Shown: positions 2,072 to 63,919 of the stretch, one piece after another
How the letters are laid out: each line of letters opens with the position of its first letter
How positions within the stretch are numbered: the stretch's first letter is position 1
Translations under genes and position numbers: made by a program
Notes under the pieces: model-generated
The model's database searches: none
What the model was told of the DNA's origin: nothing
What the model saw: only the letters and a program-made list of their open reading frames with translations
Assembly (NCBI GenBank): GCA_949825025.1
Contig: OX463778.1
Span: 32,743,969 to 32,807,968, forward strand
Reading direction: 5' to 3'
DNA: 64,000 bases
DNA from: Siphlonurus alternatus
Taxonomy: Eukaryota > Arthropoda > Insecta > Ephemeroptera > Siphlonuridae

Positions 2072-2097
2072 CACGGAGACTCGGCGCGGCGGGCTGG
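1948..2097 (+). repeat. 75-bp tandem duplication covering a splice acceptor
   Basis: Two consecutive copies, about 1948-2022 and 2023-2097, each contain GTACCACAGTGTA, a CCCTAACC(T/C)CTG stretch, a CCC(C/A)ACAG acceptor and CACGGAGACTCG, which is the beginning of the exon. The motif ACGGAGACTCG recurs at 1794, 1998 and 2073, so a third, more diverged copy lies further upstream. Only the right copy leads into the long open frame. Confidence 0.75.
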
Positions 2098-2270
2098 CGG
2101 TGCTGGTGGACGGCCAGCAGTCCTCGGGTCGTCAGGTGCGGGCCAGCGTGCGCCTCGTGGAGCTGGCACTGCGCTCGGACGTGGCGGCGCTGCTCGTGCT
2201 GCGGCCGGACGCCTTCTGGGACAAGCAGCGAGTCGACTGCACGCGGAGCGCCACTCACGGCGAGGGCCAG
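2072..2270 (+). CDS. SESTD1: Exon: SEC14/CRAL-TRIO domain, central part
   Basis: The acceptor is CCAACAG and the donor is GTCAGT. It completes a split codon and then encodes about 66 residues including LAVLVDGQQ, a hydrophobic helix (VRLVELALRS), the strand AALLVLRPDAFWDKQ and the end GEGQ. The spacing VDG, helix, PD.FWDK is that of the SESTD1 SEC14 domain. GC content is far above the flanks. Confidence 0.88.
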
Positions 2271-3492
2271 GTCAGTTTGACCAGCATTGCTAATTTGACA
2301 CCCTTCTGGTTATGATTTACCACATTATTAATATAAGGAAGTAGTACTGTATCTTATATAATATTTTGAAAACTATAAAATATATTATATTAAAACTAAG
2401 TAAATACATTTTATTGTTTTCATTGAAAAATTTAATACGTTTAAAGTAAAATAAATAAACAATTAACGCATGAAGTAAAAAACAACATTAAATTTAAACA
2501 AAGCTACAGTATCTCGGACAACATAGCTGTTAATTACGATTATATTATTATCTCCCGATTGTTATGTGACGCTTGGACGCACTATGAAAAACAGAAGATA
2601 TTACTTCTTATAGAAATTTAATCTACCATGCATCAATGCTTTACTGTTTTCATGTCCTGCATCGGAACTAACTTTGTAACAGAGATTATCAACGAGAGAA
2701 AATAAACAGTTCTTATTTGTTTTATTTTAATATCAGTACTAACAGTAAATTGATTTTTGTTTTATTTTACGTACCGTTAAATAAAATAAATTATATAGGT
2801 TATTTTATAGAAAGGTACGTCTTATATTATACGCCTCATTGTTGCATTGTTTAATATTAAAAGTGTACGGTGACTAACTAGAAAATAGTAACAAAAATGT
2901 AATAAGAGAGACCACATGATGCGCGGTGTCTAATTTATATGGAAGTTACTCGGATTATTGTTATTAAGAACTCGGTCAATTTACCACTGACTCGTTTCTC
3001 TTGTTCGCCAGGGTATTGAGTTCATTGCGGCGAGTAAACCTCGTCGTCGTCGTCTTTATTGCTGTGATCTTGAAGGTCACCATCAGGTCATATCGAGGTG
3101 CCCGACGAAAAAAATTCAAGTACTTTCTACTTCATTCCATGGACCTCGGACTACTTTAAACAGATCGTTGTCATGGTCATGTTAAACAATGTTCATCATT
3201 ATTTGTGTTTTGAATTTATCAATAAAGAAGATGTACGAAATGTGCGAATACGAATTTATTAAGATAAATTATTATTTTGTTTGAAAATGTTTTTATAGGT
3301 TTTGTACAAATCAACAGTGTAAAAAAAGTTACAATGTCATAACTATTTCTTGCTATTGTAGCTGTGTAATATTCTGAATAATATATATTATAAATATAAA
3401 GAATTTAATAATAACTTTGGTAAAAAGTGATAATTAATTGTGAAATAATTCCATACCTAGCTAACTATAATAGTAAAAACACGTGTCCACAG

Positions 3493-3606
3493 CCCGTGTA
3501 CCTGCCTTTGTCCCGCCTGCACAAGTACGTGGAGCCCGGACAGCTGCCGGGAGAGCTCGGGGGCAGCTGGCCGTACGACCACGTGCGCTGGGTCGACAAC
3601 AGAATC
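3493..3606 (+). CDS. SESTD1: Exon: SEC14 domain, C-terminal half
   Basis: The acceptor is TGTCCACAG and the donor is GTAAGT, 38 codons, phase 0 at both ends. It encodes VYLPLSRLHKYVEPGQLP and then GGSWPYDH. The YVEP..L and GGS..YDH pairs are the family signature of the lipid-binding fold end. It joins the previous exon in frame. Confidence 0.9.
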
Positions 3607-4638
3607 GTAAGTGACTCTGATTAGGGGTTCAAGTGGTTCAAGAGAGGAATACCAATGTGTAGTGAGGTACCAAGTATACACGGAAATGATACTTTGGTGA
3701 TAGTAGGGACCAGAACATAGTTTTCGTTTCAATTTTTGTTGAAAACTTCTTTTTTAGAGCAATTAAATAATGATAGGTGGTATTAGGTGGTCTATTTTAC
3801 CATTTCCCAGAATTCTTTTTCAGCATTTTATATATTTTTATTTCCATTTATCTCGATGGTGAGCAACGTGGGGTGTCCTAATTTGAATCCTCTTATCTTG
3901 ATTCCTTTCTATAATTAATGTTTTGTTGCCGGGGACTATACTTTTTTATGTTTTTACATTCTCTGATAAACTGATATATACATTATTTGATAAATAGAAT
4001 TTAAACATTGTATAAAAGTATGTTTTTCAACATTCAGCACGCAATTTGATCCAACTGAATACAAAATAAGTATTTCTCATTGCATCACGCATGCAGCTCA
4101 TGCAGTTGAGCAGCAAATTTATGCGAAGTGTATTGTTGTGTGGGCGCGTCTCGCCGCCAGGTTGCGACACAGCGGTCGTCGCCGACTAATGCAATTCTCG
4201 TGTTTGTCGGAGACAACAGCTGAAACGTAAAGAAGTGGAGTTTAAAAATCAATTTATCATTTTACGTCAGGCGTCATTTACAGTTTTATGGCATGATAAA
4301 TACCTTGAGATTCAAGGCGCGGAATATTATTTGGGTGGGGTCAGCTTTAATAATTTCGTGGGAAGTCCATGAATGTCCCAAAATTTTATTTATAAATTTC
4401 AAAGGTGTTAATTAAACAGGAAAAAGGATATGAATATTTTATTACCTGCTAAAGATGTTCTACTCAAAATTTATAGCATTAGAATTTTAAAATTAGAATA
4501 AATAAAGCAAAAAGTATAATTAATATAATTAAAGACAATATAATCTTTTTCTCATTTTGACAATGTAAATATGAAATCAATGCTTCAGTTTTACGATATT
4601 ACTTTGAGGGCGCCAATTGATGTCGCCTCGTGTTTCAG

Positions 4639-4816
4639 TTCGTTGAGTCGTTCTCTCGAGACGCGGAGGGCGTGGTGTCCGACCTGGAGAAGGTTCGTCA
4701 CCGTCTGACTGCCCTGGCGCCCGGCGTACGGGCCTCCAGCGTCGAGGAGGCGCTCGCCCTCAGCAGCGACATGTTCTCCGCTACCACCGACGTCACTTCC
4801 AAGGTCCTCACTGCAG
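4639..4816 (+). CDS. SESTD1: Exon: end of SEC14 domain and first helical linker
   Basis: The acceptor is TGTTTCAG; the donor GTAACG leaves a one-base split codon. It encodes FVESFSRDAEGVVSDLEKV and then a helical stretch with EEALALSSDMF. The opening matches the FEKFTKE..SLLDEL segment that follows the SEC14 domain in SESTD1. Confidence 0.88.
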
Positions 4817-5163
4817 GTAACGCTCGCACATTGAAGCGTGAGAGGAGGAAAATGTGGAGACTTTAACGCATGGTATTATTAATAATTATTAATATGTACG
4901 ACAAAATCTTAAATAATATGACATTACATTTAGATGAAAAGTTATTTAGTATGAGTAAATTATTAATTGTTTGGGGTCTAGTGTACATTATTTTTATTTC
5001 AGCTAAGAAAATAAAACTAGTATAATAAATGAAACCAAATATATTATTTAAAAGAAAATTATTGTACGTCTATTGAACATGAGCTGTAACTGTTACTGCA
5101 TGCTTGCTTGCTTCTGTCTGGTGTGGCATTGTTGTATCATAATTATAACAATTAACGTTGCAG

Positions 5164-5267
5164 GTACTGAGGTCCTACAGCAGTTTGAGGCGTCCTACCT
5201 TTCCGTCCTGCCGCGAGGACTCAAGGAATCTGAAGTGCCCCAGGACTTGATTGACACTAAGAGCAAG
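5164..5267 (+). CDS. SESTD1: Exon: helical linker
   Basis: The acceptor is TTGCAG and the donor is GTAAGA; two bases complete the preceding split codon. It encodes TEVLQQFEASYLSVLP and ends IDTKSK in phase 0. TEVLQQ corresponds to the ETVLQ.G segment of the vertebrate protein. Confidence 0.85.
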
Positions 5268-5468
5268 GTAAGAAATTAAGACAGCACGTTTTCGATATTG
5301 TGAGCAATAATTCATAATATAAGCGCCCTCAGATTAAATTATATTTAATATATGGGCACTATCCTGCAACGTAGATCTTTATAAGAAAAAATAGCCTAGG
5401 CTGCTGAAAACCAATCAAATTAACCGATCATTTATTGTCGACGTAAACCATTAGTTTGTTAATTACAG

Positions 5469-5765
5469 AATTTGTCTGCCACACAAGAAGTCCTGACTAA
5501 TGACTCGTTTGTCCCTCAGGTCGGACGAACGCTGGAAATCGTACGCGGCAAGCAGGCCCTGATCGCTCAGGCGTGGGGCGCGCTGGAGCGGAGCTGCCGA
5601 GCGTCGCGCGAGTTGGGCTGGCTGGAGGCTGGCGTGGCGCGCGTCACGGACTGGCTGCTGGGCGTGGCGGAGCGACTTCTGGACAACCAGCAAGCCGTGG
5701 GGCGCGACCTGCGGGCCGCTGAGCAGCTTCGCCAACAGCACGAGACGCTCGAGCTGCAGTGCAGG
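5469..5765 (+). CDS. SESTD1: Exon: first spectrin-type repeat
   Basis: The acceptor is AATTACAG and the donor GTAAAG, 99 codons. Helices include LEIVRGKQALIAQAWGALE, a V.DWLLGVAE core like the V.NWLEG of spectrin repeats, and AEQLRQQHETLELQC. A second in-frame acceptor (CCCTCAG, exon from 5521) would shorten the exon by 52 bases, which is out of phase with the previous exon, so 5469 is preferred. Confidence 0.85.
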
Positions 5766-6945
5766 GTAAAGATCATGTCATTACACGAGTTCCCACCATA
5801 TAACCAAAATGAAGTGAATAAAGAAATTGGTGTTAATGGAGAACACCCTAGCTCTATATAAACTAGTCGATGAATTCAAAGATATCTACAAATTTATTAC
5901 TTGCTGCATTTACAATCCTAAGCTACAAAACTGTGATAGTAAAGTTTATGTTTATTATAAGTATTATAACGTGCAGTTTTCCTATATTTAATTTCTCTAT
6001 TCTTCTTAAATTTGAGCATATATTATTAAGGGAATGGTCAGAAGCTCGTCAGAATATGTATATTATTTAACTTCTAGGATTGACGGTCATAATTTTTCTT
6101 TTATATGCATTAAAACCATTTTTAAACAATTTCATATTAATCCAGGTCAAACTAACACCAGTGTTTTACCTGTGTAGGCGTGCGTCGTGATTTCTTATGA
6201 TAAAACGAAACGAGTGATGCGTGAAGCCTAATTGAATCCACGAGAAGTCAGAAGCTTTTACGTCCACGCAGCTTTACAATTTTATTTATTATTTTTTTTT
6301 CTATAATCAAAAGAGTAATGCGTATCTTGTTTTGGGCACTCATTAGGGTGTTCACACCTTTTTTTTTATATTGTAATTTAAATGATAATGGAAGGTTCTT
6401 AGCTCCATTACTTATGAAGATTGGTAATATTTTATGATTTTTTTTTCAAGGTTTCAAATAAACAAAGCTTATAAAGTAAGGCAAAATATTATAGATTTTT
6501 TTTTAATGTCGTACAACAATGAACTATCAGAAAATACTACAAAAAGTGCCTCTGCAAGTTAAATTACAAAATTTTAATTATACACTTTTATATATTTAAC
6601 AAATCATTTTTTTATTTTTTTTCGTCATGGCTGCAAACTTAAAATTCAGTATACCTAATATATATAACCACAGTGCACTACGTTATTATTTAATTTGTGT
6701 ATACTTATTAATCTTATTATATTGATTACATTTCTGAAGAGGTAGATCAACAAGTCTAACTATTATAACTCAGTTTGCTAATGCGTGTTGATCTATAGTT
6801 GGTTACATGAATACTTCAAATCTTTGTAACCTTATATACAGCTGATATGTATATAGTGCAAGCAATCAAGCAGCATGCAGACAGATATATTTTATATAAG
6901 CTCTCTGATGCAGGACAACTGATTAAATCTCTATGTTTATGACAG
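5766..6945. other. Intron, AT-rich
   Basis: About 1.18 kb with T-runs and no gene seen. Short open frames here (5870-6070, 6816-7031 minus) have no coding character and the latter overlaps a real exon. Confidence 0.7.
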
Positions 6946-7140
6946 GACACGTACGGACAGTACGCGGAGCTGCTGCACAAGATCGACACGCTGCCCCAGA
7001 GCAACAACATCGCCGTGCCGAGTGACCTCAAGTGTCAGCGGGACTTCATGGACTTCGTGTGCCGCAGCTTCGCGTCCAGACTCGAGCGGCGCCGCAACGT
7101 GCTCATCACCTCGCTCAGGTTCTACCGCCTCGTCTCGGAG
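6946..7140 (+). CDS. SESTD1: Exon: spectrin-type helices
   Basis: The acceptor is TATGACAG and the donor GTGCGA, 65 codons, phase 0 both sides. It encodes DTYGQYAELLHKIDTLP, then CQRDFMDFVCRSFASRLERR and ends RFYRLVSE. The LERR..VLI.SLRFYRLV pattern equals the C-helix of the repeat (LEFRQNLLQAALEFHGV in SESTD1). Confidence 0.9.
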
Positions 7141-7520
7141 GTGCGACCTTGATCTAACAAATTAATGAGTGGAGGTTTCCCCTCAAAGTAAAATATTTTC
7201 ATTAGATAACTATGTATTACCATATGTTGATGTAATTTTTGGAAAAAATACAATTGAAAAACTATGGTCACCGATTAACACAAGGAAAATAAAGAACGAA
7301 CTGTATTTTGAAAATAGTTTATTTTAGCTATATCCTATAATTATTTAAGTATAAGTATTTTTTTTCTATTACAAGGACATTTTTTCCATGAAAATAGAAA
7401 ATTTTCTTCAGCAACTATACAATTAATGTAAAAAAGGGTTTTAGAAATTTGTTATCATCACACATAAAGTTGGGCCTACTTGAGCTTTACTCGATCGTCT
7501 CACACTAACCCGTCCTACAG

Positions 7521-7635
7521 TACTTCCAGCGCACGAGCGAGGTGTTCGAGATGCTGGGGATGGCTAGCGACTCCGAGAACTGCGAGGCCCCTGAGGCGAT
7601 GCTGCAGAGCCTTGAGGAGAACCACAACACCATCG
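7521..7635 (+). CDS. SESTD1: Exon: inter-repeat helix
   Basis: The acceptor is GTCCTACAG; the donor GTGAGA leaves a one-base split codon. It encodes YFQRTSEVFEMLGMASDS, a cysteine-containing loop and AMLQSLEENHNTI. It sits between two well matched spectrin segments and keeps frame. Confidence 0.87.
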
Positions 7636-8143
7636 GTGAGACACGTGGCTAGGAGTCTGGGAGGAGCGGGCCCAGTTTAGATGTAATGTTATGTTTGACT
7701 CGTTGGTGATAGAGATTAATGTAACATAGACCAATTAATTACCATGCAATGAGTTTTGGAAATTATTAAGCCGGCTAGCGTGTTGATGATTTTAAATTAA
7801 TTTTCATCATAATGCGTATCTAAAATTACATAATTGTTATAGTCAATATTTCAATGTTACTTTGATACCAAATTTATTATAAAGGAAAAATAATTTGAAA
7901 GTTTAAATTAAATTAAGCATACAAGTTGTAATTTGATTTCTTTTTATTTTGATGGTTTTAAATTTATTTTAGCAAAATTTTCTGACAAAGGATTTTTTTT
8001 TATGATTAAAAAGTGAATCTATTGATGCCTTTGATTAAAAAAAAATCAAAATTAAAAATATTCTACTAATTGTTACACTCTGGTGTGCAATTAAAATCGC
8101 CCGGCTCTCAATTCACTCCTAACGCTGGTGCTCGATATTTCAG

Positions 8144-8385
8144 AGGGCGTGGGCCAGGAGGCTCGTCGTGAGGGCGAGAAGCTGATGGACGTGCTCTCGA
8201 TGCCGGTCAAGGGTGCTCTGGGCCGCGAGGTGGAAGTCAGCCACGAAGGCGACATTCTGCACGTGCAGGAGCTGCTGGACGCGGCCGAGGCGCGGCGTCA
8301 CGTCTTCTGTGGTGCCGTGCAGCTGCACCGTCTCAGACTGCAGCAAGTGTCGCACGTTAGGGCCTACGAGGAGGACGCCGCGCAG
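8144..8385 (+). CDS. SESTD1: Exon: second spectrin-type repeat, first part
   Basis: The acceptor is GATATTTCAG and the donor GTGAGC. It encodes EGVGQEARREGEKLMDVLS, then HVQELLDAAEARRHVFC and ends RAYEEDAAQ. The ending EEDAAQ followed by AV.WL in the next exon is a near-identical SESTD1 junction. Best-conserved stretch of this block. Confidence 0.93.
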
Positions 8386-8874
8386 GTGAGCTACATGTGA
8401 TAACATGGACACTGCTACATGAAAAGTCAACGTGAATCTTATGTGTAGCGGTAAATTAAGTATCAAATCCATGCTTGGTCATGCTCGTATTTTAATAACA
8501 AACCTGTTTAGCTATAATGATTTAAGTAATTTGTAAAGTTGAATAAGAATACTGAAATATTATGTTTAATTATAATTATTTTATTTATTTTTTTTATTTA
8601 TTTTTTATTTATTTATTTCACATTAAATATACATTAGTTTCGTATTTTAAATCATCACCATTAATAAATTTAAAGACAATAAGACTTCATTGTTCTCCAT
8701 ACATAAAAATTACACAACATATATGATATTATTAGCTTACTACCAACAATCCTCACGTGATGCTGTGATAATTACCAACTATTAGGTCATGATTCCCATT
8801 AATTGAATCTTGATTTCTTGACTTGGGTCTGTGGACCAAGCAGTCATTGTCCTAACTCCCAGCTGATTGTGCAG

Positions 8875-8997
8875 GCGGTGCAGTGGCTGCAGGACCTGAG
8901 CCAGGCGATGCTCAGGGAACACGCCTATGTGGGCTGCTCGGTGTCCGAGATCCAAACCCAGAAGGAGGCGCACCAGACCTTCCAGGACACAGCCAAG
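8875..8997 (+). CDS. SESTD1: Exon: second spectrin-type repeat, middle
   Basis: The acceptor is ATTGTGCAG and the donor GTACCT, 41 codons. It encodes AVQWLQDLSQAMLREHAYVG and ends AHQTFQDTAK. It corresponds to the AVEWLSELLDALLK and FVDVAQ segments of SESTD1. Confidence 0.92.
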
Positions 8998-9418
8998 GTA
9001 CCTCGCACCTCAGCTGACGAAGAATGTCACACTTGCTTTTAAAAAAAAAACAATTATTTGTAAAGAGTTTTCTTATTTTAAATTACAAGGAATTCATCAG
9101 GCCACCAATACTCTTACCAGTCGTGTATATTATTATCAATGATATTGTTTTTTTAAAGATTAATACATTGAAACATTTTTGTTTGATTTAATTATATTTA
9201 GAAATAATTTCCTCAGAATTCAAAAAAAAAAAAAAAAAAAAAGTATTGCTTAAAATACAGTATAGAAAAAGAGAGAGAATTATATAATTATATTTATGAT
9301 AAATATCTAGTGTATTAATTAAAAAATAACATATTTTCGTTTTTCTTTTCATTAAACAATATCGCATGCAGATGAATATTATAAATTCAATAAAATAACC
9401 AAGACTCTGCATTCTTAG

Positions 9419-9610
9419 GGTACGTACGAGTACGGCATGCAGTTGCTGGGGGCTGCTCGGTCGCTGCGTCAATCTTGCGAACTGTCAAGTGAGGGCCACG
9501 AGGCGCTGGGCCAAAGTCTGCAGGGCGCCTGGGGGACCCTCCAAACCGCAGCCACGGAGCACATGACCAGGCTCAGGGTCTCCGCGGTCTTCCACCGTAG
9601 CGTCGAAAAG
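9419..9610 (+). CDS. SESTD1: Exon: third spectrin-type repeat
   Basis: The acceptor is CATTCTTAG and the donor GTGAGA, 64 codons. It encodes GTYEYGMQLLGAARSLRQSC, then LQGAWGTLQTAATEHMTRLR and ends VFHRSVEK. STYDYGRQLL and FHSNAEK are the matching SESTD1 segments. Confidence 0.92.
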
Positions 9611-9947
9611 GTGAGAAAAATTGAAGACATGCAGAATGACTTGAAAAATACCACCGGTGCAATTTTCAAAACTAATTGCTGAATCAATTAGTAAACGAAA
9701 GCAACGAGAAATACACTATAAGGTGTTTCTAATCATTTACAAAATTAATCTCTGATATAGAAGTACTTGAGAATTTAGTAATTCAAGTAAAATTTAAAGA
9801 CATGAAGAAGATCGAATGTCCTTCGTCCTGTGGTTGTATTTTGAATACACATTTAATATTCAGTGTATTTTAGCAATTTTGGAAATACATAATTACATAC
9901 TTAGCTACACTCCATGATCTTCCTAACTTCTTTGTTTACCTCCTCAG

Positions 9948-10153
9948 CACTGTCGTCAGCTGCAGGACCTGAAGGACGCGGTGGCGTTGCTGAGCCGCGC
10001 TCGGCGGCGGGACAGCGAAGAAGGACGTACCAGGGTCCGAGGTCTGCTGGCGTCCCGCGAGGCGCTGCTGCTCGAGGTGGGCCGCATGGTGCGTCTGGGC
10101 CGGCTGCTGAGGAGCAGGTTGCGTGAACCGCTCTGCCCAGACCAGAAACTGGG
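9948..10153 (+). CDS. SESTD1: Exon: C-terminal helices of the SESTD1-like region
   Basis: The acceptor is TACCTCCTCAG; the donor GTGAGT leaves two bases of a split codon. It encodes HCRQLQDLKDAVALLSRAR, an Arg-rich stretch and VRLGRLLRSRLREPL. The minus-strand and other-frame open frames over the same bases are shadows. Confidence 0.88.
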
Positions 10154-11984
10154 GTGAGTCGGGGTGGGACAAGAAAGTATACTGTTGTCACTTGAGCTAG
10201 TACAAAAATTATTATGCTTGGGGTCGCTCGCGATAGAGGCACAATAAATTTTCGACATGGCAACTTAAGTAATAAGTTTATTTTCAACTCATTAAATTTT
10301 TCATTGTAGTAATCATCGACCAAGAGTAAAACAAAATAATAAAATTATACCGTACTAGTTATATCAAATTTGTCTTTAATGCACGGTCTGCCTAAATATA
10401 AGGATAATCATTATTGTGCTTTGATTACACTTCGGTGCGCGTCATATCATCAAGACTTAGATCTCTACTTTTCCCATGCATGTGAAATACTCAAGACAAA
10501 TATGGAATTTAAGTTTGTTTATTTTTTGTTTCAAAATTTTATCATCCAATCCCGTTTTACCTTATAATAATTTCTTTCCTATATGACGACTCATTACTCA
10601 TTAACCTTTAAAATTTATGTGTAGTAATTACAAAAACTTAACAACTTATATATAAAACTCCCAAAAAGTTTTTACTCTCTATTAAATAATTATACTAACA
10701 ATGATGTGATTTAAAACCACAGTATATTTTTCTTGTTAAAACGATCTGATAGACATAATTTGATGGCTCTTTTTTTGTAGAGATCCTAAAATACTTTTTG
10801 AAAGCTGGATTCTTTGAAATATTGTTGGCAAAGCTCGCTGGAGCTATTACTTTAGTATTTAGGTGTATTTACATTTAAAACTTTTGAAGCTTGCTTTTAA
10901 AGATTTTGTGATTTACTCCAGTCATCGCACTACTTTTGTCGCAACGTGTAAACACGACTTGAAGCGAACGTCATATTCTGTTTTAAGTACGGAAGTCGGA
11001 AGTCGTGGAAGTCTTGAGTCATCAAAGCACAGGACTATTATAAGCTTCCATGTAAATTCAGCTTTACCACCCGGGATTATAATGCAGCAGTGGCGTAGCA
11101 CTTGCACACAAGCGTACAAAATATAAATCACTAAATCTGGCTAGAGCTTAAAGGCAGTTTAATACGATGTGGAAACCATTAAACAAATACAAAAACATAA
11201 GTAAATAAACTCGACTTTAAACATTAAGGTTACATGTAAAATAAGCTATAATTGTCGTTTTCTTATTTTGACGGAGAGCGCATTACTTTAAATTTAGAAT
11301 CTGCTGTTATTTTTTCTTCTTCCTTAATATAAAAATTAAATTTACAAATTATTTCTCACTCAGTATCTTATATTTTCACTGTGATCTAATATTTAAAGGG
11401 GGCGCCGGAAATATGTTAATATAACCTTACTGTTTTGAAAATCAAAAGTGAATTAATATATCACTGAATATAAATATATATTTAAAAAAGCATATACATG
11501 AAAATAATTAGTAACTTAACAGACGTACTGCATTATTTTTAGATTCATATTAGAACAGCTGACTTTTAAATTTTATTTTTTTCTTGCATCTGTCAGAAAT
11601 GACGTAAAATATGTTATGTAAAAAAGAGTAAAGCAAAGTGTAGTTGAGAGGTTATACGTAAGAGGTGTTTTGAGCCAGATATAACTTGACGATCGAGCAG
11701 CAGAAGCAAAAATCTCTCCGTGCGTCTGTCTTCGCCGGCCCGTCGTTACGTTCATTGCGGAGCCTCTAGTGCGTGGGCTGACGATGCCAAAAAGTTGCAT
11801 ACATTCTAGAGTTGCCAAATTTACAGGGGCTTCAACCTCTTCCAATTGTCAATTGTACGATTAGCAAGCGAAAAGGGGTTAATAATAATTGACCTTATGG
11901 ACTTCCACCCTATCTTCTTTTTATGTTAAATGCAGGAACAATATAATTGGTTCCCCAGGCTTTGGACATCGCTTTGGTCCATTG

Positions 11985-12168
11985 AGAAAAAGTAGAGGTG
12001 TCCGTCCTGACTGAGGTTTTCCACGGTTCCCTCAGTCTCACCTCAGCGAATGCTGGGACGCGTAAGCATGCAGGCCGTGGCCACTATCCGTTCCCTACCT
12101 TATCCCTACCCAGTACCCCGCCGCGAGCTGTAAGCTCTTAGGGGTGTATCCTTGTAAAAAAAAAAAAA
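11985..12168 (+). mobile_element. Retroposon (LINE/SINE) 3' end with poly(A)
   Basis: A GC-richer island in AT-rich intron contains GGTTTTCCACGGTTCCC, GCGAATGCTGGGACG and CCTTATCCCTACCCAGTACC, then ends in a run of 14 A. This style of short 3' module plus A-tail is common in arthropod LINE and SINE 3' ends. The family is not identified and the 5' boundary is a guess. Confidence 0.55.
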
Positions 12169-13819
12169 ATTATTACTATCTGGTACTCTCAGCTCATATA
12201 GAATATAAAAATTATGTCCATAAAGAAGAGTTATTAAGAAAATATAATTTTTGCTGAGAATACAGTTTAATTAAAATCAATGAATAAAAAATTATAATAA
12301 AAAATTATGTCACTGTTAATTTGCGGTGATATGTACATGATGAAAAACAGCGGTCCTCCATGCACTCTAGTAAAAAATATGCAACCTCTTTCATTTTAAA
12401 AGTGTGGGTTACAAGATTAAGATTTCACCCAACGAAAAATCACAAGAAACGCCTGCGTCTACGACGTCTCTAGTAGTTATGCCACCGCCTTGGTTGGTTC
12501 ACCACAGAAATCTCGTGAGCACCACAGTCGGTGCCACCCTTCCACCTCGGCCGCACGTGGCGTGCCGAGCGACGTTTGTGCTGTGACATAAAACGCACGT
12601 AATTGTCATCCCGCGATGTAATTGTAATGTTTTCGTGTCAGTCGTATTTTTAATGTGAAATTAGAGGTGTCAGAAAGGACGATATTTTTTTATTCGCGTC
12701 GTGAATGAGTTAAAATAGAAATAGCAGAGGGAAGCTTTTTGGTTGGCCATCAACATGGCACGTCTGGAAAGTATTTTTTTGGCAAGATACTTCTATTGGC
12801 TGGAAAACTCTTAACAGTGTTTTAAAAACATTCAGACAGTAAACCTGAATTGAGAAAAGTGTTGTTTAATATTGAAAATGCACTAAAATTATTTAAATTA
12901 CATTTCATATTATATTTCTACGTGAACTGACAGGTAAGTGGATAAAATTTATTGCATATTGATTAATAAATTTGCGTAATGTAATTCACATGATTTGTGG
13001 ACAACAGCTGCATGATGTACAGTACGTGAGTTTAATTATAAATTTAATCGCTGGCTCCACAAAGTACTGCTTGTTGATGTAAGATCTTATCATTACTTTT
13101 AGAAAGCCCAAGAATAAATTATAAGAGTTAAACCAATGCACACATGCTAGAAAAGTTTATCACTTTGAAACAATAGTATATTATTAACGCCTTGTTACAA
13201 ATTTGATTGCATGCTTTGAAAAGTTTCTGTACTGTATAATATTTTCATATGGCATTACCTTCGTGCTACGTAATTTATAAAATGTCTTAATTAAAATTTA
13301 AAGTATGTTATGTACTGTACTATACATATTTATATTTTTATTAGCAGTGTACTTATTTTAATATAGACATCATTATTTTATATAACATTATCTTATACTT
13401 AGAGTCAAAAATACTTATTTGCGTCATTCACTTAATGTGTCTACTTGAACAAAGCCTGGTAACATATCTAAATGAGAGGGTGGGGGAGGGACTCTGCTGA
13501 AATCGAGCCAATTTTGAATAATGTACACTATAATTGATTGGTCACACCCTCGCTGCCAAATGTCATTCAAGAAAAAGTTTGTTAATAATTGATTGGTCGG
13601 AGGACACGTTTCGTGTTTTCTAGGAGAAATTCTAAGGACTCGCGTGACATTTTATCTTACTTCGTGGGTACTTCAAATGGCTATTTCGTTTAATTTGTTG
13701 TTATAATAATTACATCTCAGCATTATTTGCTACATCGCACCAATTAAGAAAACTTTATAACATTGATTCAGAATATCATTGACAACATACTGTATACTAT
13801 ATTATTATATCTATGACGC

Positions 13820-39299: not shown

Positions 39300-39302
<3 letters not shown>

Positions 39303-49643: not shown

Positions 49644-49662
49644 GTGAGACAAAGAGACAGGG

Positions 49663-50627: not shown

Positions 50628-50719
50628 ATCTAAAATACATTCTGAGGTGATGACAGTCCTATTTGTTCTCCTTACTTTTCACCTACAGGTATTAAATACT
50701 TTTCGCTCAATTGTTTCAG

Positions 50720-51348: not shown

Positions 51349-53295
51349 GTAGGACTCTCAATCTTTTATACTGTACTTACATCTTAGGGACACTGTGTAT
51401 GTACTTTTGCAAAGTACAGCATTTATTATTAAATATTTATACTGTTATTTTATGATGAATGGGAATAAAAAATAATCATGAATTTTATGGGGAATATATT
51501 ATATATAATATTATATACTATAATATGTTCCTATATTATATCTTATATTTTTCAACAAAATATATTGTTTTTATATATAATTATTTATTTACTCGATTAC
51601 CTTTTTTTCTGCAGTTTTTATGTTTTGTATGTTGTGGTAGGGTATACAGTAGTTAGTTTACCAATGAAATCTGCCTTCTTGTTTGTTTAAAATGTTCTGT
51701 TTTCTTTTCTTTTTTTTTATTTATTTTTTTATTAGTTACCAGGAAATTAATCTGTTTTTTAAACTTTCAGTTTTGAATTCACTTTGTAGCAGACTGTTAA
51801 TTTGTCTGAAAATAGGTCAAGGAAGGTTTCAATTTTCAAACCCCTAGCTTGAAAAATTACTATTTTAATTTGTCAAACTATTTTATATTTGTTAGTGGCA
51901 AGTATGTTAAGTGCTATATTAAGAAAGCTTCGATTTTGCTTAAAAAACTTATCATCATGCTATTGAATTTTACTTTTCTTTCTATGGATATGTCTATTTC
52001 GAAATGACATGACATGTTGAATAATAATTATTACAAATAATATTTAAGCTTATGCTTTTTTTTATGCATGTAATGCACACTACTTGTTGTGTACAAATTT
52101 AAGGTTAAAAAATATTACAACAGTTATAACTACGGTATAGGTTAAATTAGTTTTTTATCAATTTATTATTTTTAAGTAAAAAAAGAAGATAATATAAAAA
52201 ATGTAAATTCGAGGGATTCAATTACTTTTATAAATTGTGACTTAAGGTAGAGATAACGCCAATCAGCTGTTCGACGTACTCCCGTTTGATTAACAATAAA
52301 ACCTTAGCAAATTCACAAAAATTCTGAATTTTTTTAGAGGCAGATATTAGTGCCTTAAAGCTATAGAAAAAATTTCAAAACAATTTAACGAGCCTATTTT
52401 TTTTATTAATTTTTTTTTTTAATTTTCAGCTAGGGCTTTCCCATGGAGAGACAAACTAAAAACTTAATTAAAAAAAATCGTCTCGTTAAATTGTTTTGAA
52501 AATTTTTCTATGACTTTTAGGCACTAATATCTGCCTCTCAAAAAAAATTAAGAATTTTTGTGAATTTGCTAAGGTTCACATGTTAATCAAATGGAGCTAA
52601 AAAAACAGCCGATCGACGTTATCTCTACCTTAAATATAAATCAATTTATTAATTAATTAGTTATTACTGTAAATTATATTGAATTGAAACTCAATGCTTT
52701 CCAATTGTATATTTATATAATATTCTCGCAATAAAATGTGAAAATACGCGACAAAGCGCGTCAAAAATTACAAACGTGGAATTGGGAAAAGAATAAAAAG
52801 TTTAATCTTTGAAGCTATTTTTGCATTGATCTAATCTTGCACTTACTCGGCCACTAAAATTCGAATCTAACGACTCTGATTCTATATTTGCAAGCGCTAT
52901 AAAAAACTTTCAACATTATGTCCCTGTTCTTGCATATATAAATAAAAATATAAATTCAATTCGTTAGATTTTTTAGAAGATGGTGTTAAGATGGGTGTTA
53001 TATATATTTTTTACGGAAGGGAGATTTTAAAGATGAGAGTTATTTTTATCTGGGATATGAGTTGGCGTTTCGCCCGACGTACATGTTATATGTATGAAAG
53101 AAACGTTCTTTAGACCGGAGCTTGGCTCTAGAGCTGGCTGGAGCTTGTCTCGTGTAAATAACTTTGCATCGTGTTTAAAAAATTATTTAGTAACAAGTCG
53201 TCTCATTGGTCCGAATGCTAGCGGAGATTCCCGACGAAAATTTAATTAGATATGAAACTTGGTGAGATTCATGGCGCGGTGTCTGGTGTGTTCAG
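51349..53295. other. AT-rich intron
   Basis: About 1.95 kb. It contains the TTAA-flanked MITE at 52243-52632. No gene seen. Confidence 0.75.
52243..52632. mobile_element. TTAA-flanked MITE (piggyBac type)
   Basis: TIRs GGTAGAGATAACG and CGTTATCTCTACC are each bordered by TTAA (52242-52245 and 52630-52633), the target duplication used by piggyBac elements. Most of the interior is one long inverted repeat (GGCAGATATTAGTGCC on the left). Non-coding. The class call is from the target site only. Confidence 0.75.
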
Positions 53296-53496
53296 GAAGC
53301 GACCGCGCCTCCCTCGTCGCGGCAGGACCCGCACTTGGACGTGAAACGTGCCCGCCTCTGTGTTGAGACGCTGCTCGAGCACTTCAACAACCACCAAGTG
53401 ACGCTAGAAACTTCGTGGACCACCTGGCAGACGCGAATATCGACCTTCCGGGAGACCACCGTCCAGTGGCAGAGGATCATGATCGAAAGCTCCAGG
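53296..53496 (+). CDS. CCDC141: Exon: spectrin rod
   Basis: The acceptor is TGTGTTCAG and the donor GTAAGT, 67 codons. It encodes a Pro-rich start, VETLLEHFNNHQVTLETSWT and TVQWQRIMIESSR. Three Trp in helical register fit a spectrin repeat. Confidence 0.9.
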
Positions 53497-55456: not shown

Positions 55457-55640
55457 ACGGTGGACTGGGTGTCTCGGCTGGACGCTCAGTTCTACCCGCT
55501 GTTGGACGCGGACGAGGTGGCGCCTCGCGGCGTCGTGCGGCGCTTGGAGGAGCGTCAGGCCCGCGTGCTGCCTGAGGCGAGGCGCGCGCAGGCCGAGGTA
55601 GAGCTCAGACTGCGGGCCGTCGAGTCGCTTCAAGTGCAAG
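55457..55640 (+). CDS. CCDC141: Exon: spectrin rod
   Basis: The acceptor is GTTCTCCAG; the donor GTGAGT leaves one base. It encodes TVDWVSRLDAQFYPLLDADE, then VVRRLEERQARVLPEARRA. DWVSRLD is a spectrin A-helix core. Confidence 0.9.
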
Positions 55641-56106: not shown

Positions 56107-56237
56107 GCGAGGCCCAGGTCCAGCGTGACAACGTGGTGACACAGCTGCTGCAGCTCAACCAGAGGGTCAACACCATCGTCTCAGAGTACCAAGTCCTGCT
56201 TCAGATGCTCATCGCCTTCTTCAAGAACGTTGCAGAG
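56107..56237 (+). CDS. CCDC141: Exon: spectrin rod
   Basis: The acceptor is TGTGTGCAG and the donor GTACGA. Two bases complete a Gly codon; it encodes EAQVQRDNVVTQLLQLNQRV and QVLLQMLIAFFKNVAE, a C-helix ending. Confidence 0.9.
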
Positions 56238-56586: not shown

Positions 56587-56763
56587 CTGGAGAAGACGGT
56601 GGAAGGCCTGCAGGTCCAGTACCGAGGCACGGTGCTCCCCACGGATGTGACCAGCGTGGAGAAGATGCTTAAAGAACACGAGGCCTCACGACACACCGTG
56701 TCCGAGCTCTTCCGCTTTACCAGCAACGAGAGCCAACAGGTCATCGCACGCATCAGGCAACAG
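56587..56763 (+). CDS. CCDC141: Exon: spectrin rod
   Basis: The acceptor is GTGTTCACAG and the donor GTGGGG, 59 codons. It encodes LEKTVEGLQVQYRGTVLP and VEKMLKEHEASRHTVSELFR. Confidence 0.9.
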
Positions 56764-57075: not shown

Positions 57076-57348
57076 GAGCCGGGCCAGGCAGCCCAGAACG
57101 ATGTGGAGGTGATCTCTCGCGTGCTGGGGTCTCGCCAGGTGCAGTGGGAGCAAGGTTGGGAGGAAAGACATGCACAGCTGGAGCAGCACCTGCAGCGTTG
57201 CCAGTTTGATGCAGACCTACAGCAGCTCAACCAGCAGCTTGCAGATCTGGCAACACAGCTCGGCAGGGTCAGGGGCCAGTTTGGGGAATCCCTGGCGACA
57301 GCAAGAGCAAACGCTCAGGCCTTTGTGGCCTTTGAGAGGACAATAGAG
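57076..57348 (+). CDS. CCDC141: Exon: spectrin rod
   Basis: The acceptor is TTTTTCCAG and the donor GTGGGT, 91 codons. It encodes AAQNDVEVISRVLGSRQVQW, a Gln-rich helix (LEQHLQRCQFDADLQQLNQQ) and AQAFVAFERTIE. Confidence 0.91.
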
Positions 57349-57564: not shown

Positions 57565-57756
57565 CTGCTGGAGCGGAGGGTGACGATGTTCGTGAGCACT
57601 GCTGAGAACCTTCTTGCTGTGGAGCACATGTCGTCCAGCCATGTCCAGCAGGAGCTGGAGAGACTGCAGGCGCGCTGGGCCATGCTCAGGTCGCAGGTCA
57701 CCGAGTCCAAGCGGCTCATCGACCTCAGCGTCCAGTATTTCATTCTCGTCGAGGAG
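57565..57756 (+). CDS. CCDC141: Exon: spectrin rod
   Basis: The acceptor is TTTGGTAATCAG with a mediocre tract; the donor is GTATGT, 64 codons. It encodes LLERRVTMFVSTAENLLAVE and LQARWAMLRSQVTESKRLID, a Trp-containing B helix. Frame agrees with both neighbours. Confidence 0.88.
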
Positions 57757-58148: not shown

Positions 58149-58529
58149 GCCGAGGAATGGTTCAGAGAAGGTAGTCGTCTACTTGTTACGATTGCTCGCA
58201 AGTCCACGGCAGTCAAGACTCCAGAAGAAGCAACTCAACTCCTCAGTGAAGTGGAAATGTTCCTCAGACCTGGTGAAGCTCGACAAAACGAACGCATTGC
58301 CAAGATTTCCTCTCTGGCCTCTCAGCTGTACGGTAAGCTGACCAACAAGTGCCGTAAGTGGGAGATTCTGATAGAGATTGTTACAGGGGAGGAGAGGTCA
58401 CGGCAAGTCACGACTGTGCTGACGGAGAACCACGAGATGTTGGAGTCATTCAGCGTGATCAACATCGAACTTACGACCCTGATTCGAAACCTGAGGGCTG
58501 CAGACGACGAGAGACAACGACAGAAGAGG
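58149..58529 (+). CDS. CCDC141: Exon: last spectrin-type segment
   Basis: The acceptor is GTGTAACAG and the donor GTGAGA, 127 codons. It encodes AEEWFREGSRLLVTIARKST, KTPEEATQLLSEVEMFL, RIAKISSLASQLYG and NHEMLESFSVINIEL. These run parallel to the C-terminal rod of CCDC141 (FWYEDASATVVRVGKYST, KTKEAVKIL, LAQHLYG, HKEVLESV). Confidence 0.93.
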
Positions 58530-58727: not shown

Positions 58728-58877
58728 GAACTGCTGGAGGCTGATGCATCATTGACGGCCGCTAGACTCGAGGCTGAAGCTGCAAGAGCAGCGGCTGCAG
58801 CTGCCGAGGATGCAAGAAGGTCCTCTGAGGCAGCAGCACAGGCTCTCAAAGAAGCAGAGCGAGAGAGACAGAGAAGG
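58728..58877 (+). CDS. Exon: Ala/Glu/Arg module 1
   Basis: The acceptor is TGGTTTCAG and the donor GTACGT, exactly 50 codons. It encodes LTAARLEAEAARAAAAAAED and ends KEAERERQRR. It is homologous residue by residue to the next exon and to the start of the one after. Confidence 0.9.
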
Positions 58878-58929: not shown

Positions 58930-59079
58930 GAGCAACAACAAGCTGAGGCATCCCTGGCCACTGCAAGAGCCGAGGCAGAGGCAGCGAGATTAGCGGCCGC
59001 AGCAGCAGAGGAAGCAAGAAGGGCGTCCGAGGCTGCAGCAAAGGCATTGAGCGAGGCTGAGAGGGAACGTCAAAGACAG
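58930..59079 (+). CDS. Exon: Ala/Glu/Arg module 2
   Basis: The acceptor is TTTTTGCAG and the donor GTACCA, again exactly 50 codons. It encodes LATARAEAEAARLAAAAAEE, then ARRASEAAAKAL and ends SEAERERQRQ. The preceding intron is only 52 bases. Confidence 0.91.
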
Positions 59080-59334: not shown

Positions 59335-60129
59335 GAACAATTGAAAGCAGAAGAGTCATTAGCAGCTGCAAGGGCAGAGGCAGAGTTAGCTAAAAATGCC
59401 GCGGCTGCAGCAGAAGAAGCTCGAAGGGCTGCTGAGGCTGCTGCTAATGCTATGAAAGATGAAGAAGCAAGGAGAGCGAGAGACGCAGCTGAACATGCAC
59501 GCAGGGCTGAAGAAGCAAGAAGGGCAGCTGAGGCAGAGACTTTACGACTTCAGGCAATGCGGGAGGAGGAAGCCAGGAAGGCTGCTGCAGTAGCAGAATA
59601 TACACGACGGGCGGAGGAAGCCCAGCGTGCTGCAGAGGCCGAGGCACTCAGGCTAGAGGCTTTGAAGGAGGAAGAGGCTCGCAAGGCCGCAGAAGCAGCA
59701 GAGAACGCTCGGAAGGCAGAGGAACAGTGGAGAGCTGACGAGGTTAGGAGAGCTGCGGAGTCTGCCGAGAGGGTGAGGAAAGAGGAGGAAGCAAGGAAAG
59801 CTGCAGAGGAAGAGAGACTTAGACATGAACAAGCAAGGAGAGCTGCGGAAGCAGAGAGAATTAGACAAGAGGAGGCTGCAAGGAAGGCTACAGAGAAGGC
59901 CAGGCAAGAAGAAGAAGCGAGAAAGGCTGCAGAGGTTGAAAGAATTCGACAGGAGGAGGCGACAAGAAAGGCAAAGCAAGAGGAAGAAAAGAGAAAGGCT
60001 GCCGAGGCCGAGAGAACCAGACAAGAAGAGGAGAGGAGAGCAGCAGAGGCTGAGAGAGCTCGTAGAGAGGACGAAGCTCAGAGAGCAGCTGAGGAGAAAG
60101 CCAGGCAGGAGGAGGAAGCAAGGAGAGCT
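59335..60129 (+). CDS. Exon: Ala/Glu/Arg module 3 and long charged helix
   Basis: The acceptor is TGTTTTTCAG and the donor GTGAGT, 265 codons, the longest exon. It starts like modules 1 and 2 (LAAARAEAELAKNAAAAAEE) and then repeats EEARKAAEAAE and EEARRAAEAER types to its end. Glu and Arg/Lys at 3-4 residue spacing predict a stable single alpha-helix or coiled coil of some 40 nm. It separates the spectrin rod from the Ig domains. Other-frame and minus-strand frames here are shadows. Confidence 0.92.
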
Positions 60130-60432: not shown

Positions 60433-60572
60433 ATTCCAGTTATTGAGCCTCAACCTGCTCCCATGAAGGTCCAACTCGAGGAGTCTGCCCCAGTCCTCAC
60501 TGTCCCCGTCTTTGTAGAAGCTCTCAGAGACTCCGTCATCCAGGAGGGAGACAAGTTCACCTTCGAGTGCAG
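60433..60572 (+). CDS. Exon: linker and first half of Ig 1
   Basis: The acceptor is TCTCTTAG; the donor is the non-canonical GC (CAG|GCATGT), leaving two bases. It encodes a Pro-rich linker, VFVEALRDSVIQEGDKF and the B-strand FTFEC. A GT three bases later would break the frame. Confidence 0.87.
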
Positions 60573-60633
60573 GCATGTACCAGCATGTTCTTTGTAATCT
60601 CGTATCACAGTGCTAATGAACTTGTTCTTGCAG

Positions 60634-60839
60634 GGTGTCTGGAGTGCCTGTGCCTCAAGTGGAGTGGTTTAAAGACGGAATCTCGATACAAAATAACCCA
60701 GACTATCATACTAGTTTCTACAAAGGTATTTGTCAACTTCGAATAGAAGAAACCTTTACTGAGGATTCTGCTAAGTTTACATGTAAAGCTGTAAATGCAG
60801 CTGGTAAAGCTGAAACTCATGCTACATTATCTGTGAAAG
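60634..60839 (+). CDS. Exon: second half of Ig 1
   Basis: The acceptor is TTCTTGCAG; the donor GTAAAT leaves one base. It encodes VSGVPVPQVEWFKDG, then LRIEETFTEDSAKFTCKAVN. The Cys pair, the Trp and the ED.A.F.C.A.N pattern define an I-set domain of titin type. Confidence 0.93.
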
Positions 60840-60900: not shown

Positions 60901-61197
60901 AACCTGGACCCCAGCTTACTCCTCCTGTGTTCTTGAAACCACTACTAGATGGCACTGCACGTGAGGGTGGAAAATACCAACTTGAGTGTACAGTTCACGG
61001 TTACCCTCTACCCACGGTACAGTGGTTCAAGGACGGTACTTGTATTGATGCCTCGCCAGATTATGTTATTACTTTTAACAATGGTCAAGCCATTCTGCAG
61101 CTTGATGAGGTGTTCCTTGAAGATCAAGCAATGTTCTGCTGTCAGGCGTCCAATAGACTTGGCACTTGTCAAACTGAAGCCAAGTTAACTGTCGAAC
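60901..61197 (+). CDS. Exon: Ig 2, complete domain
   Basis: The acceptor is TTTTTCACAG; the donor GTAAGT leaves one base. It encodes PPVFLKPLLDGTAREG, YQLECTVHGYPLPTVQWFKD and LEDQAMFCCQASNRLG. One exon, one domain, both cysteines present. Confidence 0.94.
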
Positions 61198-61548: not shown

Positions 61549-61712
61549 CTTTGGAACCCACTCAGACTCCTGCATTCACTGTGCCACTAAGCAATATTAT
61601 GGCTCGTACTGGACAGAAAATCAAGCTAGAATGCGAAGTATCTGGAATTCCAGAGCCTCGAATTACTTGGACACACGATGGAAAACTCGTCAAAGAAACC
61701 AGAGAAGTCAAG
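61549..61712 (+). CDS. Exon: first half of Ig 3
   Basis: The acceptor is TTCCTGCAG and the donor GTAAAA. It encodes PAFTVPLSNIMARTGQKIK, LECEVSGIPEPRITWTHDG. B-strand Cys and C-strand Trp are present. Confidence 0.92.
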
Positions 61713-61777: not shown

Positions 61778-61906
61778 ATTGTCCATGACAAATGCAAATC
61801 CACGCTTCATATTTCTGAGGCCTTCCCTAAGGATGCTGGTGTGTACACTGCCAGAGCTAAGAACTTGGCTGGGGGTGCCACCAGCTCCTGTAATGTGTCC
61901 GTGAAG
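61778..61906 (+). CDS. Exon: second half of Ig 3
   Basis: The acceptor is TATTTTAG and the donor GTAAGT, 43 codons. It encodes STLHISEAFPKDAGVYTARA and NLAGGATSSCNVSVK. The F-strand Cys is replaced by Ala (YTARAKN), so no canonical disulfide-type pair, as in many intracellular Ig domains. Confidence 0.92.
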
Positions 61907-61962: not shown

Positions 61963-62115
61963 GGCCGCCTTCCCACGGAGACCTCAGACTCTGAGATGGC
62001 CAGTGACATTGAGCCGGTTAAGCCTGCCATCCAGATGCAGCTCAAGAACACCAGGGTGGACGAGGGGAGTCCTGTCAAGCTGGACTGTATCATCACGGGT
62101 CAGCCGGAACCTGAG
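61963..62115 (+). CDS. Exon: linker and first half of Ig 4
   Basis: The acceptor is ATGTCTCAG and the donor GTGAGG, 51 codons. It encodes an acidic linker (TETSDSEMASDIEP), IQMQLKNTRVDEGSPVKLDC and ITGQPEPE. The preceding intron is 56 bases. Confidence 0.91.
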
Positions 62116-62330: not shown

Positions 62331-62511
62331 GTTATTTGGTACCATGATGGTCGCCCAGTGAAAGAGTCCAAGGAAGTTCAGCTGTTGTTCAAGGGTGACC
62401 GGTGCACACTGGTGATCAAGGAAGCCCTTGTGGAGGAGGCTGGGGAGTACCGAGTTGTTGCCGTTAACTCTGCAGGCGAGGCCTCAAGCACCTGTCAGCT
62501 CACTGTTGACC
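62331..62511 (+). CDS. Exon: second half of Ig 4
   Basis: The acceptor is TATTTGCAG; the donor GTAAGT leaves one base. It encodes VIWYHDGRPVKESKEVQLL and EEAGEYRVVAVNSAGEAS. The F-strand Cys is replaced by Val. Confidence 0.92.
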
Positions 62512-62566
62512 GTAAGTTCCTCAAAGTTCACCTGAGAGTTGTGACTTACCAAGGTCTTCATTACAG

Positions 62567-62754
62567 CTCTCAACGTGCCTACGCCTGAACCAGAGATAAT
62601 TGGTGTGGCTCCCAAGTTCACCAAACTCCTAGCGGATATTCTCATACCAGAGGGAGAAACTACCAGATTGGAATGTGCCGTGGAAGGAGAACCAACACCT
62701 AAAATCACTTGGTTATTAAATAATCATGAAGTTCCTCCTTGTGATAGACTTGAG
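62567..62754 (+). CDS. Exon: first half of Ig 5
   Basis: The acceptor is TTCATTACAG and the donor GTAATT. It encodes VAPKFTKLLADILIPEG, TRLECAVEGEPTPKITWLLN. The preceding intron is 55 bases. Confidence 0.92.
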
Positions 62755-63066
62755 GTAATTATTGTCATTATTACAGAAGTTAAGAGTTTTATGAGGGAAC
62801 CAAAAGTAGTAATTTGTTGTTGTTGTAGTTTTTAAATATTGGTAGAATCAATATTAATTTGTATAATTTATTTAGCAAAAAAGCACCACAAAAATATGTG
62901 GTTCTGTTACAATTTTGTAATGCATGTAATTTATTACTAAATATAAAACAAGAAAGTGTTAACCATTTTGTACTGTGTAGCTATTAAAGTAAAAAATAAA
63001 AGACAATCTTTGTGTTTAACTCTTTTCTTTTATTTTGACTATTAACTATTTATATTTCATGTGTAG

Positions 63067-63345
63067 ATGATTCATAATGAAGAATCGGGCCAAGTATGTC
63101 TGACTATTACCAACACTATGACATCAGACAAGGGAGTGTATACAGCAAAGGCTATAAATAGTCTGGGTGATGCAAAATGCTTTGCTACATTGATCGTAAG
63201 AAGCCACCAAGAAACACCAGAACTGCAGCGCAAGGAGAGGTTGCATGAAGCTCCCTACTTCACTGAAATACTCTGTGACAAACTAGCAGTTGAGGGAGAC
63301 TCAACAAGATTTGAGTGCATAGTCCAAGGCAAACCCACTCCTAAG
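63067..63345 (+). CDS. Exon: second half of Ig 5, linker and first half of Ig 6
   Basis: The acceptor is TCATGTGTAG and the donor GTATGC, 93 codons. It encodes CLTITNTMTSDKGVYTAKAI (F-strand Cys replaced by Ala), a charged linker, then APYFTEILCDKLAVEGDSTR and FECIVQGKPTPK. Confidence 0.92.
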
Positions 63346-63741
63346 GTATGCACAAGACCTCTATTATTTTGTTTTGCAAAGACTAACATTCTTGCTTTCA
63401 CTTTGGAATTTTTATGTTAGGAAAGTACTTTAGTTTTCTTTTCTATGATTCATTCTTTGTTTAGCAACAATGTAGATGTTTACCATCTATTTGTAGAACT
63501 TGTTTAACAGTGATAATTTAAAATAGACTTGTTATACTATTTCCTTTAATCAGTATTGTTGAGTTACTAAATTAAATTTTTTATAAATTTTATACAATAA
63601 GCTAAAATTATAGCTAAAAAAAAAAGGACTTTTTTGAAGCTAAAATATAAAAGATACGCGAGTATAATTATTTTATTTTTCACTCATTTCAATCTGTGTT
63701 AAAATATTAGGACCAAATTTTACAAATACGATGCTTTGCAG

Positions 63742-63919
63742 GTGCGTTGGCTGTTCAACGATAGCCCGGTGTCTGGCCGAGACTTCCTAGTGTCCACCAG
63801 TGGTCAGCGACAAGTGCTCACCTTGCCTGCCGTGTCAAGAGAGCATTACGGAACCGTCTCGTGTGTAGCTGAAAACGAAGCAGGCCGGGCAACTTGCCAG
63901 GCAGCTCTCAGAGTTGAAG
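63742..63919 (+). CDS. Exon: second half of Ig 6, last exon in the window
   Basis: The acceptor is CTTTGCAG; the donor GTACTT leaves one base, so the protein continues beyond the window. It encodes VRWLFNDSPVSGRDFLVS and REHYGTVSCVAENEAGRAT. The canonical Cys is present again. Confidence 0.92.

Follow-up and report, generated by a model that had tools for sequence, protein, structure and literature searches.

The stretch of DNA analysed here (below, the window) consists of 64,000 nucleotides of the mayfly Siphlonurus alternatus (C1:32,743,969-32,807,968, + strand, within a 455.7-Mb assembly of 102 contigs). With the sequence to its right, it is an arthropod connectitin locus, in which SESTD1-type, CCDC141/zormin-type and sallimus-type genes lie collinear on one strand. 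The first two, called gene S and gene Z below, are probably a single composite gene with two starts. This reading is drawn from sequence comparison, because the two halves are fused in annotated proteins of 25 insect species and because the mayfly exons align without a break to a dragonfly protein across a splice from 17432 to 37642. The three-gene order and the idea of one ancestral gene have already been published (Hanashima et al., 2025, PMC12198301, available in part); the new point seems to be the splice link between SESTD1 and zormin in insects. No printed account of this joint was found in a literature search, which covered openly available papers and, of the 27 that name zormin, passages of three.

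Exon coordinates for both genes are those of a hand-built splice model. Flanks of 30 kb on the left and 190 kb on the right were added to the window sequence, and positions count from the first base of the window. The window has GC-rich exons and AT-rich introns and is spliced animal DNA. Gene S (2072-17456, + strand) has 15 in-phase exons and encodes 914 residues. Gene Z runs on the same strand from an ATG at 21416 to 63919, with 32 in-phase exons and 2,178 residues in the window, and is open on the right. Phases agree throughout the model, without an internal stop, and all introns are GT-AG apart from one GC-AG intron at 60573, which interrupts the first immunoglobulin (Ig) domain of gene Z. 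Protein searches were restricted by a length window, by which giant proteins were missed; 7,995 candidates were scored with gene S as the query, 7,982 with the rod of gene Z and 2,227 with a query joining SESTD1 and zormin. Among known proteins, the mayfly Ephemera danica has the closest ones (59% identity for gene S, 70% for the rod of gene Z), and the mayfly Neocloeon reaches 51% to the rod. Species are assigned to insect orders by their usual classification.

The joint between SESTD1 and zormin

Some of the relatives obtained before the joined query was used already carried both halves in one chain. The joined query gave 55 matches, and joined proteins were counted by local alignment over 174 relatives. 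By this count, 25 insect species contribute 37 annotated proteins that carry, from the N- to the C-terminus of one polypeptide, SEC14, then SESTD1 spectrin, then the zormin rod (19 species of Hymenoptera, 4 of Coleoptera, 1 of Odonata and 1 of Hemiptera); fused models with lengths of 4,500-5,000 aa would correspond to a protein of nearly 500 kDa; the numbers are not frequencies, because a joined query favours joined matches. Three more proteins (from Ptiloglossa, Schistocerca and Bactrocera) are joined and lack only the SEC14 match. The ordered count of 37 plus 3 replaces a looser one of 43; P0076, P0124 and P0168 were dropped as fusions, being likely cross-matches between spectrin repeats. 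The presence of the SESTD1-type spectrin repeat PF24915 in the zormin models P0083, P0087, P0122 and P0131 is likewise not accepted as a sign of fusion, because the SESTD1 parts of the query have no match there.

In 34 of the 40 joined proteins the SESTD1 tail runs straight into the equivalent of mayfly gene Z exon 2, and in the other six an exon with the motif TTTIS, corresponding to the first exon of gene Z, lies between them. The joint in P0165 and P0167 is less clear-cut than in the other proteins.

The mayfly has the same exon pair. The last tail exon of gene S ends in ..DLMQQMKE at 17432, in phase 0. Gene Z exon 2 (37642-37764, + strand, SRDWVQLK..), the exon joined to SESTD1 in the fused models, has a phase 0 acceptor, so that 37642 is compatible with the donor at 17432 or with that of the TTTIS exon at 21625. 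The donor at 17432 scores 10.4, against a median of 8.4 for the other donors. When the two mayfly exons are joined virtually, the product aligns without a break to the dragonfly protein P0136, with 100 of 199 columns identical (50%), and the residues at the joint are DLMQQMKE/SRDWVQLK in the mayfly and ELMQQMEE/SRDWLQLK in the dragonfly. The weight of this evidence lies with the homologous joints in other insects and not with the agreement of phase.

A number of points weigh against a composite gene. Agreement of phase alone is expected in about one third of cases by chance, and the acceptor at 37642 has a modest score (4.9, against a median of 7.3 for the other acceptors). In E. danica the two halves are modelled apart, as the adjacent proteins P0001 and P0079, and Neocloeon has a model with the TTTIS exon as its start. 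Annotation pipelines predicted the fused models, and the joined query is biased towards them. The joined query returned no fused mayfly model, which means little, because Neocloeon P0082 was also missed in that search; the non-insect relatives, a small sample compared with insect queries, were not fused.

Alternative explanations

The locus may simply contain three ordinary neighbouring genes, as in Drosophila, with the fused models arising as joining errors of prediction or from rare read-through. The separate models of E. danica and the zormin-only model of Neocloeon are in keeping with this, and CG15822 and zormin are given as separate genes in the available text of PMC12198301. Moreover, short SESTD1 models are common: 32 of 78 relatives end alike, roughly in K-Q/H-A/T-x-x-G/S-x-F/L, so that a short form would be a genuine and frequent product. 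Nevertheless, we consider this explanation unlikely. In 25 species from four orders it is this one pair of exons that is joined, the mayfly-dragonfly alignment crosses the joint unbroken, and random joining errors would not pick an identical joint. A different possibility is that insects have a genuine joint of secondary origin, having re-fused two genes that were already separate, in which case it would be uninformative on the ancestor. This is doubtful, if far from negligible: every fused model seen comes from insects, and crustacean and arachnid relatives start with either the TTTIS exon or exon 2, but joined forms are reported in cnidarians and placozoans (PMC12198301, in its available text), and the non-insect sample is small, the fusion search having used no non-insect query.

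TRIO/Kalirin and obscurin share SEC14, spectrin or Ig modules with the locus, and the SEC14 fold, as modelled for the louse homologue P0005, is nearest to that of Kalirin. However, none of 39 genome matches to RhoGEF lies at C1:32.7-33.0 Mb, PF24915 is present in gene S, and the nearest proteins are SESTD1 and zormin-type proteins. An identity as TRIO/Kalirin or obscurin was rejected, and we give it next to no probability.

In the composite gene that we favour, transcripts from the upstream start, predicted near -0.6 kb, would contain the SEC14 and spectrin exons, and would either end as a short SESTD1 protein or splice from 17432 to 37642 onto the zormin body, producing a chain of SEC14, spectrin, rod, coiled coil and Ig. 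From the internal start, exon 21416-21625 would supply a short N-terminus and lead to zormin alone. By analogy with Drosophila zormin, the Ig half would probably be located at the Z-disc and M-line. The long form would add a Kalirin-like SEC14 head and further spectrin length, and would thereby probably tie the edge of the sarcomere to the membrane. The sequences show which genes are present, their order, strand and phases, and that fused homologues are annotated in other insects; that this mayfly transcribes the fused form, and what that form does, is our inference.

The original prediction was that an ancestral unit had been split into separate genes, or one ancestral gene cut. The idea of an ancestral unit stands; in insects the cut between SESTD1 and CCDC141 looks incomplete, because 25 species have both halves annotated as one protein. 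In its broadest form the proposal would be that in insects SESTD1 and zormin were never fully cut and form one gene with two promoters, the joined protein being regularly made in muscle across the insects, from dragonflies and mayflies as far as flies, with some transcripts perhaps running on into sallimus; the chances of this seem to us even. Should a SESTD1-CCDC141/zormin protein indeed be produced by living insects, Bilateria would still have a partial counterpart of the proposed single ancestor, and the synteny argument for the origin of titin turns into a question that can be tested at the bench. The fused reading also explains why insect proteins containing SESTD1 are filed under 'titin' and 'zormin', and zormin, a protein of the Z-disc and M-line, would gain a SEC14 head.

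The SESTD1-type gene

All exons of gene S are on the + strand. The first coding exon, whose frame contains MSCAAALLEALHHSPRLACLPGGRDRQG, is located about 550 bp to the left of the window, where the E. danica SESTD1 model maps. Within the window, the SEC14 exons are 2072-2270 and 3493-3606, on the basis of a phase-consistent model and of the mapping of the same E. danica protein. They are followed by spectrin-repeat exons at 4639-4816, 5164-5267, 5469-5765, 6946-7140, 7521-7635, 8144-8385, 8863-8997, 9419-9610 and 9948-10153 (splice model, Spectrin_SESTD1 and homologues), and by tail exons at 15083-15275, 15775-16045, 16339-16418 and 17232-17432, which are identified from the E. danica model and from dragonfly P0136 across the junction.

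The best match of gene S is E. danica EDAN004272 (E 2.2e-283, 59% identity, 99% of the query covered). The SESTD1-type repeat PF24915 (Spectrin_SESTD1) has a score of 61.8 bits (cut-off 27) over residues 352-453, and is listed for 75 of 78 gene S homologues, the exceptions being P0001, P0077 and P0078. Gene S itself has no CRAL_TRIO match in Pfam, in a query that is incomplete in that its first exon is outside the window. The louse homologue P0005, which is 42% identical to gene S over the SEC14 part, is above the cut-off for CRAL_TRIO_2. An AlphaFold model was made for this louse protein rather than for the mayfly one, using 29 homologues (predicted local distance difference test, pLDDT, 87.7; predicted template modelling score, pTM, 0.54). 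Its eight best matches in the PDB are all chains of the Kalirin Sec14 domain, and these are followed by β2-spectrin repeats. Gene S looks single-copy, because the E. danica SESTD1 protein has 15 matches in the whole mayfly genome (18 of 18 candidates scored) and every one of them falls at this locus.

Besides the splice to gene Z, two ends are suggested for gene S. Reading through the donor, 17433-17456 (+) encodes VRQNFIK with a stop at 17454-17456, and an AATAAA is found at 17631. This ending was not seen in any relative, and the C-terminus shared by the short SESTD1 models was absent from the mayfly intron searched. In P0017 the short C-terminus arises past the same donor by reading on (RRMKQ/VSAS..). 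The other end is a possible alternative last exon at 30047-30199 (+), which lies within intron 1 of gene Z and reads ..WVPPHRLCQPRVEEHGRT before a stop. It matches the C-terminus of E. danica SESTD1 with 63% identity, this being the single model in its support, and the WVPPHRLCQPRVEEHGRT motif was found in no other protein among the 133 checked of 174 relatives. Because of this match, gene S may have an end within a gene Z intron, so that the two genes would be interleaved.

To the left of gene S there are further coding stretches (from -29.5 to -11.8 kb), which putatively encode a valyl-tRNA synthetase and a DENN-domain protein.

The CCDC141/zormin-type gene

Gene Z continues beyond the window to a stop at 74275-74277, its Ig array ending about 10 kb past the window, and all its features are on the + strand. 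Its alternative first exon (21416-21625) begins with the ATG, has an in-frame stop upstream, contains ..TTTISTIALQSGTTRIVIALLQ and ends in a phase 0 GT donor. The TTTIS motif of this exon is present in 30 of 55 gene Z homologues, and is near the N-terminus in 26 of these 30. After exon 2, the spectrin rod is encoded by 42464-42642, 43350-43597, 44134-44387, 44658-44882, 45282-45467, 49005-49133, 49521-49643, 50720-50926, 51193-51348, 53296-53496, 55457-55640, 56107-56237, 56587-56763, 57076-57348, 57565-57756, 58149-58332 and 58387-58529 (E. danica and Pfam). An open frame at 50190-50410 was dropped as a rod exon, a phase 0 acceptor not being seen. The rod is 70% identical to E. danica EDAN004271 over 99% of the part searched, and matches the Pfam families Spectrin (93.5 bits, five stretches) and Spectrin_7. 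EDAN004271 (3,794 aa) maps onward from 37642 to 73603.

After the rod, three exons (58728-58877, 58930-59079 and 59335-60129) encode an Ala/Glu/Arg-rich stretch of 365 residues, which is probably a coiled coil; the largest of these exons matched no Pfam family. The stretch is also long in Neocloeon, whereas the model of E. danica has only some 50 residues here, and it is a mayfly-side expansion. Six I-set domains come next (60433-60572, 60634-60839, 60901-61197, 61549-61712, 61778-61906, 61963-62115, 62331-62511, 62567-62754, 63067-63345 and 63742-63919; Pfam I-set, best E 3.6e-20), and the top PDB match of the six-Ig array is titin.

The original prediction had taken this array for titin itself. 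It belongs to gene Z, because the frame runs on from the rod (60129, phase 0, to 60433, phase 0), and thus forms the C-terminal half of a CCDC141/zormin-type gene. The same prediction had named SESTD1 and CCDC141 modules on one strand between 2072 and 63919, and here it holds, the strand being +: the E. danica matches (59% and 70%), Spectrin_SESTD1 (61.8 bits) and Spectrin (93.5 bits) bear out both identities, and the limits fall where a SEC14 exon starts and an Ig exon ends.

Gene Z has the hallmarks of CCDC141/zormin, namely a TTTIS-type N-terminus, a spectrin rod and Ig domains on the C-terminal side. The tick protein P0133 ('coiled-coil domain-containing protein 141-like') is 29% identical over gene Z residues 47-1061; human CCDC141 is presumably similar. 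The source names of gene Z relatives are zormin, titin or unc-89, or are lacking. Public names in both families can mislead: the SESTD1-type proteins P0042 and P0052 are called 'titin', zormin-type P0081 is called 'unc-89', and Tribolium zormin-type P0087 is called 'SEC14 domain and spectrin repeat-containing', yet has no SESTD1 match.

The sallimus-type gene and the three-gene order

An Ig profile built from zormin-type proteins was run over 264 kb around and to the right of the window. All 100 matches are on the + strand, with 11 in the window, 6 to its right in gene Z and 83 from 108 kb on; these and the I-set counts are numbers of matches and not of domains, because introns split domains. 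A sallimus/titin-type gene thus follows gene Z on the same strand, its first Ig being about 45 kb past the window edge (108.8 kb). It includes a frame of 2,819 codons at 153.0-161.5 kb, of which 55% are P, E, V or K (PEVK-rich), and one of 4,023 codons at 186.1-198.1 kb, and its Ig matches reach 235.3 kb. For two of its Ig pieces, titin is the best match in the PDB. The first Ig and a Q-rich exon at 91.6 kb may resemble the N-terminus of Drosophila sallimus, which we treat as a lead only. The N-terminal motif expected for sallimus was found in 0 of 174 relatives, in a look for the motif only and under length limits that exclude most giant proteins. Between gene Z and this Ig array (74.3-108.8 kb) there are short coding-like stretches, and no further gene was recognised. 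A reverse-transcriptase-like frame on the - strand adjoins a run of N at about 130-134 kb, within the sallimus-type gene.

The order of SESTD1, CCDC141/zormin and sallimus/titin on one strand is confirmed, because a sallimus-type gene with an Ig array and a PEVK-rich frame stands downstream. The original prediction had noted the agreement in strand and order with human SESTD1-CCDC141-TTN, and had proposed extension to the right as a check for a full titin/sallimus-type protein; a sallimus/titin-type gene was indeed found beyond the window. The agreement, and the proposal of a single ancestral unit, are independently in print (PMC12198301, available text), so that the latter is not new. The extent needs correction: a row of three genes within 62 kb is too short, the unit covering some 217 kb or more, between -0.6 kb and Ig matches at 216 kb.

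Mobile elements and repeats

The frame at 45769-48525 (+, 919 codons; RVT_1 E 4.8e-37, Exo_endo_phos_2 E 2.7e-8) is, from its domains, a retrotransposon of long interspersed nuclear element (LINE) type, in a rod intron of gene Z and on the same strand. A self-complementary element of about 314 bp occurs in two copies, 93% identical, at 16598-16911 and 49662-49975, and there are other self-complementary stretches at 50178-50628, 52242-52633 and 32866-33053. These look like hairpin-type mobile elements. A gene S intron contains two arrays of a tandem repeat of 40-41 bp (TTGCATCCGGATGCGCATCCCAGATGCACGAAAAATAAAT) at 13862-14454.

Comparison with known systems

According to the available text of PMC12198301, the connectitin unit is SESTD1-CCDC141-TTN in human and CG15822-zormin-sls in Drosophila, and derives from one ancestral TRIO/KALRN-like gene. 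Joined forms with RhoGEF and kinases are reported in cnidarians and placozoans, whereas the bilaterian genes are described as separate, the single gene being an inferred ancestor and the bilaterian unit lacking RhoGEF. The paper cites spanning transcripts for CCDC141-TTN and zormin-sls, and notes that the starts of the three genes have their counterparts in internal promoters of KALRN. The mayfly locus has the same three genes in the same order and strand, with a TRIO/KALRN-related SEC14 and a sallimus-type PEVK gene last. It differs in that the published bilaterian genes are separate, while the first two mayfly genes look splice-linked.

TRIO/Kalirin resembles the locus in its SEC14 fold (from the P0005 model), spectrin repeats and Ig, and differs in RhoGEF, which is absent from the mayfly locus. 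A candidate Trio gene is found on another contig (C5:3.90-3.99 Mb), where two RhoGEF matches share a strand at a distance of some 85 kb; I-set matches lie further to the right of this pair, among the 150 of 663 candidates scored in a genome-wide I-set search.

Drosophila zormin is similar to gene Z in having spectrin repeats and Ig domains and in being upstream of sls (PMC12198301, available text). It has been described as a small sallimus isoform at the Z-disc and M-line (PMC5521747), as a Z-disc protein (PMC4095857) and, in a title cited by PMC7349286, as an 'Sls isoform'; the parts of these three papers that were available make no mention of a link to SESTD1 exons. The closest counterparts of the proposed long form are Ischnura elegans 'titin isoform X2' (P0136), Photinus 'titin isoform X3' (P0134) and Linepithema 'zormin isoform X3' (P0147). 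These predicted models have SEC14, spectrin, rod and Ig in one chain, with the same pair of exons at the junction, and their names conceal the SESTD1 half. The mayfly differs from all three in the 365-residue Ala/Glu/Arg-rich stretch between rod and Ig.

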